Part shown: piece by piece, positions 9,671 through 34,037 of the stretch | Numbering within the stretch: the first letter of the stretch is position 1 | Layout of the letters: each line of letters opens with the position of its first letter | Assembly (NCBI RefSeq): GCF_002924445.1 | Contig: NZ_PIGG01000064.1 | Location: 62,001-126,000 of the forward strand | Origin: Minwuia thermotolerans | Lineage (GTDB): Bacteria > Pseudomonadota > Alphaproteobacteria > Minwuiales > Minwuiaceae | Reading direction: 5' to 3' | Length of the DNA stretch: 64,000 nucleotides | Program-made: the position numbers and the translations under genes | Notes under the pieces: generated by a model | Database searches by the model: none | The model's input: the letters and a program-made list of their open reading frames with translations, nothing else | Told to the model about the DNA's origin: nothing

Positions 9671-11329
9671 GTGCACGGACCGGCCTTCCAGGAGGGACAT
9701 CGCGTACAGCCCCTGATCGAGGCGGAGGAGACCTACGCTGCGATCGAGACGGCGATCGACCGCGCTGAGGACGAGGTACTGATGGCCTACTGGACGCTTA
9801 CGCCGGACCTGGACCTGGTGACCGACAGGGCCGAGAACTGGGAGGCTCTGCTCAGCCGCGCCGTGGGTAGGGGCGTCCGTTTCCGCGTCCTGCTGGCCGA
9901 TTTCGATCCCGTCTTCACACCCACGCTTCACCGCAGCGCCTGGCGGACCTACCGGCGTCTGATGGACCTGTCGGGTCCGTCGAACCGCGCGGAGGCGACG
10001 CTCCAGGTAATGTGCTCGCAGAATCCCGTCCGGCCCGGCCTGCCCGAGATTGTTGCCGGCAACGTTGCCGCGCAATTCAGGATCGGAAGACTCATCGAGC
10101 GCCTGGCGGCGAGCGCGGAGGAGGGCGGCGGCGGCGGCGACGCGGCGCGCCGCGCCTTCGCGACCGCGCCCGGACTCTGGCGGCACATCGTCCGCCGCGG
10201 GGACCGTTTCGTGCGCCGCCAGCCGCGGCCGGCGAACCTGTTGCCCGGCACCCATCACGAAAAGCTCTGCATTGTCGACCGGCGGACGGCTTTCGTGGGC
10301 GGACTGGATATCGGAGAGCGCCGCTACGACACGCTCCGCCATGACCGCGAGACGCCCTGGCACGATCTCGCCTGCCGGCTCGAGGGCCCGGCCGTCGCCC
10401 TGCTCACGCATCATTTCGTCGACCGCTGGAACGTCGAGCTGGAGGCCTTCAGGGACTTCATGGACGACTTGCCGGATTTCGAGGAGAAGGCCGACGTCAG
10501 GCCGGCCGAGCTTCGTCCGATGACCGACGGCGCCGAAGCGGCCGGCGGGACCGGCGCCGAGGGCGAGGTGGCCGTGGCGACCTCCCGCTCCGGCGGCGAG
10601 AGCCCCGCCGCGCTGGACGTTGACCGGCGCATCACCTCGATTTCGGCGGCGATCGAAGAGATTGTCGGCGCGGCGCGGCGCTTTCTCTACATCGAGACGC
10701 AGTATCTCCGCGCACGAAGCGTGACGGACCGGCTGATCCGGGCGGCCCGGGAGAACCCCGAACTGGAGATCATTCTTCTGCTGCCGCTGGCGCCGGACCG
10801 GCTGGATCCGGATGCCGGCTGGAGTACGCCCACGCGTCACGGCCACTGGCTGCAGTACCGCAACATCCGCCGTCTGCGCCGGGCGCTGGGCGAACGTGTC
10901 GGCGTCTTCACTCTGGTCAGCCGACAGCCGGCCGGCGATGACGACGCGCCCGAGGATACCGTCCTTGGCGCCAGGGGAATCTACGTTCATGCCAAGACGA
11001 TCGTCGCCGACGACCGTATCGCCATGGTCGGGTCGGCCAACCTCAACGGGCGCAGCCTGGCGCTCGATACGGAGGCCGCGATCCTCTGGCGGCAGCCTGC
11101 GGCGGTGCGTGAGTTCCGGCAACGGCTCTGGCATCACCATCTGGGCTTCGCCATGCCCGACGACTTCGACCCCGCCCGTCATTCTGCGCTGGCGCTGTGG
11201 AACAGGGCGGCTGCGGTAAACATGCGCGCGGGGATTACCGCACGGCCCGGCTTCGCCATCGCCTTGGAGAACGGCCGGGCGCGGCGCAAGGCGCGGCCAT
11301 CGCCGTTCGTACGCAGCCGCTATGTGTGA
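9671..11329 (+). CDS. Phospholipase D-like protein with two HKD motifs
   Basis: A 552-residue protein with two phospholipase D catalytic motifs: HEKLCIVDRRTAFVGGLDIG near residue 200 and HAKTIVADDRIAMVGSANLNGRS near residue 440. Both have the H-x-K-x4-D pattern. Family members hydrolyse or transfer phosphatidyl groups, using both histidines in one active site. No signal peptide or membrane anchor is evident, so it resembles soluble PLDs rather than cardiolipin synthases. An alanine/glycine-rich linker (around 280-315) separates the halves. Translation starts at GTG 9671 behind GAGGAGAGG. Substrate is unknown. Confidence 0.85.
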   Translation: MHGPAFQEGHRVQPLIEAEETYAAIETAIDRAEDEVLMAYWTLTPDLDLVTDRAENWEALLSRAVGRGVRFRVLLADFDPVFTPTLHRSAWRTYRRLMDLSGPSNRAEATLQVMCSQNPVRPGLPEIVAGNVAAQFRIGRLIERLAASAEEGGGGGDAARRAFATAPGLWRHIVRRGDRFVRRQPRPANLLPGTHHEKLCIVDRRTAFVGGLDIGERRYDTLRHDRETPWHDLACRLEGPAVALLTHHFVDRWNVELEAFRDFMDDLPDFEEKADVRPAELRPMTDGAEAAGGTGAEGEVAVATSRSGGESPAALDVDRRITSISAAIEEIVGAARRFLYIETQYLRARSVTDRLIRAARENPELEIILLLPLAPDRLDPDAGWSTPTRHGHWLQYRNIRRLRRALGERVGVFTLVSRQPAGDDDAPEDTVLGARGIYVHAKTIVADDRIAMVGSANLNGRSLALDTEAAILWRQPAAVREFRQRLWHHHLGFAMPDDFDPARHSALALWNRAAAVNMRAGITARPGFAIALENGRARRKARPSPFVRSRYV

Positions 11330-33102: not shown

Positions 33103-33561
33103 TTACGCCGCCTGCGGGAGGCTCTTCTGCTTGCCGCCGTTGATCTCGATCTGCCGGGGCTTCTCGGCCTCCGGGATCTCGTTGACCAGATCGATGTGCA
33201 GCAGGCCGTTCTCCATCTTGGCGCCGGTCACCCTGACGGTGTCGGCCAGATGGAAGCGACGGGTGAAGGCACGGCGGGCGATGCCGCGATAGAGGAACGA
33301 GGTCTGCTCGCTCTCCTCCTGGCGTTCCTCCACCTTGCCGCTGACGGTCAGCGTGCGGCCTTCCTGGGTAATGTCGATATCGTCTTCGTCATAGCCGGCC
33401 ACGGCCAGGCTGATGCGGTAGTCGTCGTCGCCGGACTTCACAATGTCATAGGCCGGGAAGGCCGGACCTTCGTTGGAATTGAAGGCGACGTCGAACAGCC
33501 GGTCGAACCGGTCGAAGCCGACGGAATTGCGGAAAAGGGGGGTAAGATCAAAGGTGCGCAT
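33103..33561 (-). CDS. Small heat-shock protein Hsp20 (IbpA class)
   Basis: A 152-residue alpha-crystallin-type chaperone that holds unfolding proteins. It begins MRTFDLTPLFRNSVGFDRF, the usual class-A start in alphaproteobacteria, and carries the alpha-crystallin core (YDIVKSGDDDYRISLAVAGYDEDDI...LTVSGKVEE...LYRGIARRAFTRRFHLADTVRVTGAKMENGLLHIDL) and a C-terminal IEI-type tail. A frame to 33597 exists, but the ATG at 33561 has GGAGG 8 bases upstream and fits the family. It is controlled by an RpoH-like promoter and a ROSE-like thermometer in the leader. Confidence 0.93.
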   Translation of the reverse strand: MRTFDLTPLFRNSVGFDRFDRLFDVAFNSNEGPAFPAYDIVKSGDDDYRISLAVAGYDEDDIDITQEGRTLTVSGKVEERQEESEQTSFLYRGIARRAFTRRFHLADTVRVTGAKMENGLLHIDLVNEIPEAEKPRQIEINGGKQKSLPQAA

Positions 33562-33696
33562 ATCACATCCTCCATTCGAAGCAATGCGTCTCAGCACGAC
33601 ACCCCGGCTCTCGGGGTGACCAGTCTGTCCACCGGCCCGGATGCTCCGGCGCCGGCAGGGTTCGGGAAGGATTCCCGTGGCGGGACATCGCTTCCG
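33562..33696 (-). promoter_or_regulatory. ROSE-like RNA thermometer in the hsp20 leader
   Basis: The last leader stem pairs CATTGCT (33586-33580) with AGGATG (33571-33566) of the Shine-Dalgarno region: C-G, A-U, U-A, U-G, a bulged G, C-G, U-A. This UUGCU-to-AGGA pairing with one bulged G is the diagnostic ROSE arrangement. A stable hairpin (CACCCCG, loop AGAGC, CGGGGTG; 33600-33618) lies just upstream, and the 5' part holds further palindromes such as CGCTTCCGGAAGCG. Leader length (about 135 bases from the predicted start of transcription) is suitable. Heat should open the stem and allow translation. Confidence 0.8.
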
Positions 33697-33702
33697 GAAG
33701 CG

Positions 33703-33731
33703 GATATGTGGTGGCTTCGCCGGGGTTCAAG
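33703..33731 (-). promoter_or_regulatory. RpoH (sigma-32) type promoter for hsp20
   Basis: On the minus strand, CTTGAAC (33731-33725) and CCACATATC (33711-33703) are separated by 13 bases, close to the sigma-32 pattern CTTGAAA-N13-CCCCATNTA. It lies just downstream of the rpmE terminator and upstream of the ROSE-like leader, so it is the natural hsp20 promoter. Confidence 0.7.
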
Positions 33732-33745
33732 AGGTTTGGGCGCAC

Positions 33746-33775
33746 AAAAAAACCCGCCGGTGCGGACCGGCGGGC
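33746..33775 (-). terminator. Intrinsic terminator of rpmE
   Basis: A 9-bp perfect stem (CCCGCCGGT/ACCGGCGGG, loop of four bases) is followed on the minus strand by seven T residues (33752-33746). It lies about 40 bases after the rpmE stop. Confidence 0.93.
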
Positions 33776-33815: not shown

Positions 33816-34037
33816 CTACTTGATGCCGAAATTGGCGTAGCGGGCGCGGAACTTGGCGACCTGGCCCTTGTCGAGGACGCGCTGCTGACCGCCGGTCCAG
33901 GCGGCATGGCTGGAGGGATCGATCTCCAGCACCATGGTGTCGCCCTCGCTGCCCCAGGTGGAGCGGGTCTTGTAGGTCTCGCCGTTGGTCAGCTGGACCG
34001 TGATCTCGTGGTAGTCGGGATGGATATCGGGCTTCAT
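33816..34037 (-). CDS. rpmE: 50S ribosomal protein L31
   Basis: A 73-residue protein matching L31: [67 protein letters not shown]. It lacks the CxxC zinc pairs of the zinc-binding form, which is normal for alphaproteobacterial L31. It is a single-gene unit with its own intrinsic terminator and lies divergent from tRNA-Leu. Confidence 0.95.

Follow-up and report, generated by a model that had tools for sequence, protein, structure and literature searches.

What controls the small heat-shock gene hsp20 at this locus, and does its leader act as an RNA thermometer? In the window (the whole stretch of DNA that was analysed, 64,000 nucleotides) hsp20 lies on the minus strand (33103..33561, with its ATG at 33561) and encodes an IbpA-like small heat-shock protein of 152 aa (PF00011, E 4.3e-17). 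The NCBIfam model nearest to its product is IbpA NF008013 (E 1.7e-38, with a score under the model cut-off). Among the closest relatives of this genome in our collection are contigs that carry the labels Minwuia and 'Kordiimonadales bacterium IMCC3096'. The original prediction, made from the letters of the sequence, placed hsp20 under double heat control, by a sigma-32 promoter and by a thermometer of the ROSE design. Our analysis makes it very probable that a ROSE-type RNA thermometer is indeed present in the leader of this IbpA-like hsp20 and that an RpoH (sigma-32) promoter drives transcription of this leader.

The gene preceding hsp20 on the same strand is rpmE (33816-34037, minus strand, PF01197), and its sequence is followed by an intrinsic terminator, CCCGCCGG-TCCGCA-CCGGCGGG and then T7 (33746..33774, minus strand). 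As this terminator (33774-33746) lies between rpmE and the hsp20 promoter, hsp20 most likely forms its own transcription unit, judging by the arrangement of the elements. The promoter consists of a sigma-32-like -35 element CTTGAA (33726..33731, minus strand), which is conserved in hsp20 leaders, and a -10 element CCACATAT (33704..33711, minus strand), which resembles the published consensus. Together they read CTTGAA-N14-CCACATAT, in agreement with a CTTGAA-N(13-18)-CNCCATAT-like promoter, where the sigma-32 consensus is NNCTTGAA-N(13-18)-CNCCATAT (PMC3669281). The original prediction had called this a good sigma-32 promoter and had written it as CTTGAAC-N13-CCACATATC, which is literally correct, and the promoter turned out to be conserved in relatives: sigma-32-like pairs scoring at least 9 of 11 were found in 30 of 37 hsp20 leaders, compared with 3% of shuffles. 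The genome encodes two RpoH proteins, and transcription of hsp20 would be RpoH-dependent. From the position of the promoter, transcription probably starts at 33698-33695.

With this predicted start, the 5′ leader of hsp20 is about 136 nt long (33562..33698, minus strand) and is predicted to fold into at least three hairpins. Hairpin I, CCGGCGCCGGAGCATCCGGGCCGG (33632..33655, minus strand), and hairpin II, CACCCCG-AGAGC-CGGGGTG (33600..33618, minus strand), are both GC-rich, were identified by sequence and fold and align with the first and second hairpins of the Rfam ROSE family RF00435, so that further hairpins stand upstream of the main stem, as expected of a ROSE element. The last, the ROSE hairpin CGCAUU(G)CUUC-GAAU-GGAGGAUGUG (33564..33588, minus strand), is supported by a full-length but sub-threshold RF00435 alignment, by our own covariance model R1 and by covariation. 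Here UUGCU (33584-33580) pairs with the Shine-Dalgarno sequence (SD) GGAGG (33573-33569), leaving G33582 bulged, in line with the accepted ROSE signature, U(U/C)GCU with a bulged G (PMC11342760). The 3′ end of the hairpin is 3 nt ahead of the start of the PF00011 HSP20 gene, so that the element lies within the 5′ UTR of a gene for a small heat-shock protein. All the parts that had been proposed, namely a leader of about 135 bases ending in a UUGCU stem with a bulged G over the ribosome site, preceded by the CACCCCG hairpin (33618-33600) and further palindromes (here a hairpin at 33655-33632), were thus found where the original prediction put them.

Such a stem is rarely encountered by chance. 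We scored bulged-G U[U/C]GCU stems with at least 8 pairs over an SD. Of the 1,835 ATGs on the two strands of the window, the hsp20 start was the only one with such a stem, apart from an ATG that lies within this stem itself. The stem was present in 29 of 37 related hsp20 leaders and in 7 of 11,100 composition-shuffled leaders, and the U[U/C]GCU motif itself occurred in 37 of 38 hsp20 leaders. Since the window leader exceeds the leaders of five relatives by approximately 40 nt, MAFFT misregistered the whole leaders of the genus, and only the core was aligned. Over 32 hsp20 leaders, whose rows had been cut to the surroundings of the motif and of the strand it pairs with, which somewhat favours the stem, the nine-pair stem was paired at 96.2%, while controls in which the alignment was slid reached at most 62.5%. 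In the same 32 leaders 31 cells were changed on both sides of the stem, compared with 10.0 in shuffles, and the covariation score was 0.498 versus 0.269 in shuffled data, with 0 of 500 shuffles scoring as high. The parts of the predicted hsp20 thermometer, their conservation, the covariation of the stem and the conservation of the promoter are all observed.

To the public RNA-family model the element is barely visible. RF00435 aligned with it over its full length (positions 1-94), ending at the ATG, but its score was 20.7 bits, where the gathering score is 45 bits; when the E-value is divided by the count of families, this single family comes to roughly 2e-4 in this stretch. At the gathering threshold Rfam reported no ROSE element in the window or in 19 relatives, and a search of the organism's own genome with RF00435 gave no match, presumably as so weak a score is lost at first look. 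By Rfam's own rule, the 45-bit threshold, the element is outside RF00435. We built R1, a covariance model with a 32-position core, from 32 hsp20 leader rows including that of the window, and it scored 26.2 bits (E 3.7e-5) on the window element, which is thus one of its own training rows. Covariance-model support, which had been suggested as a check along with the original prediction, thus comes from the purpose-built model, while the Rfam model stayed below its threshold. Neither in the window nor in its genome did R1 give any other credible match. A match at window position 11051 (10.6 bits, E 2.2) and a second match in the organism's genome, inside a coding region (L047, 18.4 bits, E 0.69), were both taken as chance. 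R1 had no match at the remaining three hsp20 genes (L078, L079, L080), and within this genome ROSE control seems, from these searches, to be limited to the IbpA-like hsp20 paralogue.

Across the class, R1 matched at E ≤0.5 in 174 of 289 sampled genomes, and hsp20 follows 29 of the best 30 loci, some of which are training members. As positive controls we used named, plasmid-borne rhizobial hsp20 genes, none of them in the training rows of R1. Rfam recognises ROSE in Bradyrhizobium (71.9 bits), Agrobacterium (69.2 bits), Mesorhizobium (52.3 bits) and Rhizobium (45.1 bits), and in all four R1 matched at the same position. As R1 finds the Rfam-recognised rhizobial ROSE elements at the same position, the window element is of the same kind and in the same position, and the threshold of the Rfam family would reflect a narrow seed. 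The claim of a ROSE design over the hsp20 ribosome site is hence upheld by R1, by covariation and by the rhizobial controls.

How would the leader respond to temperature? At normal temperature the UUGCU strand would pair with the SD and block ribosome entry, although a single bulged G and a U-G pair make the stem weaker. Upon heating, the stem would open and permit translation of an mRNA that is itself made more abundantly through RpoH. We infer that melting falls in the physiological range and that hsp20 is controlled at the level of translation. Regarding the double heat control as originally claimed, the promoter and the ROSE-type stem are conserved and their combination is a known arrangement (PMC3669281), and the heat response itself is a prediction. 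Any RNA stem weakens with rising temperature, and the course computed for the isolated ROSE hairpin, from -8.0 kcal/mol (37 C) through -6.7 (42 C) to -4.7 (50 C), is compatible with a thermometer but does not demonstrate one. At 42 C the SD is computed to open only slightly, by nearest-neighbour rules that model the non-canonical ROSE pairs poorly.

This small opening, and the fact that thermometer behaviour is a prediction, would fit a static hairpin that senses no temperature and merely lowers hsp20 translation, leaving heat control to the RpoH promoter alone. We regard such a hairpin as very unlikely, given that the class-wide invariant bulged-G motif and the covarying stem are exactly of the ROSE type and that elements of matching type have been proven thermosensing in the literature (PMC3669281, PMC11342760). 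Another reading emerges when the leader is folded together with codons 1-9. In the minimum-energy fold then predicted, the anti-SD arm (33587-33578) forms 10 pairs with a possible competing arm at the 5′ end of the mRNA, GAAGCGATGT (33685..33694, minus strand), and this pairing replaces the ROSE hairpin. The leader could accordingly be a two-state switch, where the SD and the mRNA 5′ end (33694-33685) compete for the anti-SD arm and control lies in a choice between long-range folds rather than in local melting. None of 500 shuffles attained the 10-bp complementarity, which was, however, noticed after the fact and is confined to the window genome and the near-identical relative G006, being not significant in the other five of six further genus members. 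Moreover, the competing fold is gone if folding stops at the ATG or if the transcript starts at 33688, and in it the SD is still occluded, paired with early codons. We consider the switch improbable, and the competing fold, as modelled, may be viewed as a species-level caveat on the ROSE hairpin. Chance palindromes in a GC-rich leader would agree with the silence of Rfam at its gathering threshold; they are contradicted by the shuffle controls, by the covariation and by the R1 matches, the rhizobial ROSE elements included, and we give them next to no credence. A ROSE-type thermometer remains the preferred explanation.

This explanation has clear precedents. Already in 2005 more than 40 ROSE candidates were predicted upstream of small heat-shock genes of alpha- and gammaproteobacteria (PMC3669281, PMC4166951), and Pseudomonas ibpA was shown to combine a sigma-32 promoter with a ROSE-like thermometer (PMC3669281; PMC4166951). 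The rhizobial hspA-type ROSE (RF00435) resembles the window element in its position directly before hsp20, its three-hairpin layout and its U(U/C)GCU motif with a bulged G over the SD, whereas the window scores below the family threshold and its hairpins I and II differ in sequence. Pseudomonas ibpA shares with the window the sigma-32 promoter and the ROSE-type hairpin on an IbpA gene, but its ROSE-like thermometer is short, with two hairpins where the window leader has at least three, and control of ibpA is proven by experiment whereas that of the window is computed (PMC3669281). ROSE-like thermometers of ABC transporter genes have the same U(U/C)GCU motif with a predicted bulged G and differ in their target genes (PMC11342760). 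As the combination of a sigma-32 promoter and ROSE on a small heat-shock gene is already established, the control proposed for the window is of a known type, here in an alphaproteobacterial lineage missed by the public RNA-family model. ROSE control of IbpA-type hsp20 genes thus reaches well beyond rhizobia, across Alphaproteobacteria. The Rfam model misses such elements, and annotation pipelines consequently under-report thermometers, which the 32-position core model recovers.

In at least two clades of alphaproteobacteria with small genomes, R1, trained on hsp20 leaders only, also matches immediately upstream of RpoH start codons. Among 30 rpoH loci of the class, 11 had a match (best match of each, E 1.5e-5 to 1.7e-3 in 116 kb); these loci were chosen as the nearest to one ROSE-bearing RpoH, and 11 of 30 is accordingly no class frequency. 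The window genome's own two rpoH loci gave no R1 match. Other searches added further cases, and ROSE-type U[U/C]GCU bulged-G stems stand immediately ahead of the rpoH start codon at loci L151-L158, L160-L163 and L118. The stems were 98.1% paired, with a covariation score of 0.434 compared with 0.209 in shuffled data (0 of 500 as high), their arms having been registered by pairing, which somewhat favours the stems. By eye, most of them stand behind another predicted hairpin, and several of the rpoH promoters are sigma-70-like rather than clearly sigma-32-like. Most of these small genomes measure 1.2-2.3 Mb; several of them are incomplete and rich in AT. A quick tree of RpoH placed the bearers chiefly in one supported clade (12 of 14 rows), with a second group of three rows.

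Some of these leaders have a more elaborate layout. Within the second RpoH group the stems precede short ORFs rather than rpoH (L048:467-660, L095:1501-1560): in G282 an ORF of 53 aa that overlaps the rpoH start with its stop, and in G188 one of 8 codons some 190 nt upstream of rpoH. In G058 the rpoH leader (L161:1360-1444) apparently contains two ROSE-like hairpins in tandem, matched by R1 at 1360-1391 and 1414-1444, and a further AGGAGG SD is found just past the second.

In the literature consulted, ROSE is described on small heat-shock genes and ABC transporter genes (PMC3669281, PMC11342760). We found no report of ROSE on rpoH in the open-access literature, which by this scope is weak evidence of novelty. 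It is likely, in our estimate, that the window holds one copy of a ROSE module spread across the class, and that in two or more small-genome lineages this module sits before rpoH itself, where it would control the heat-shock sigma factor and not only one target. If the rpoH copies are confirmed, one thermometer design would have passed from a chaperone gene to the master regulator, and would represent a solution different from the rpoH thermometer of E. coli.
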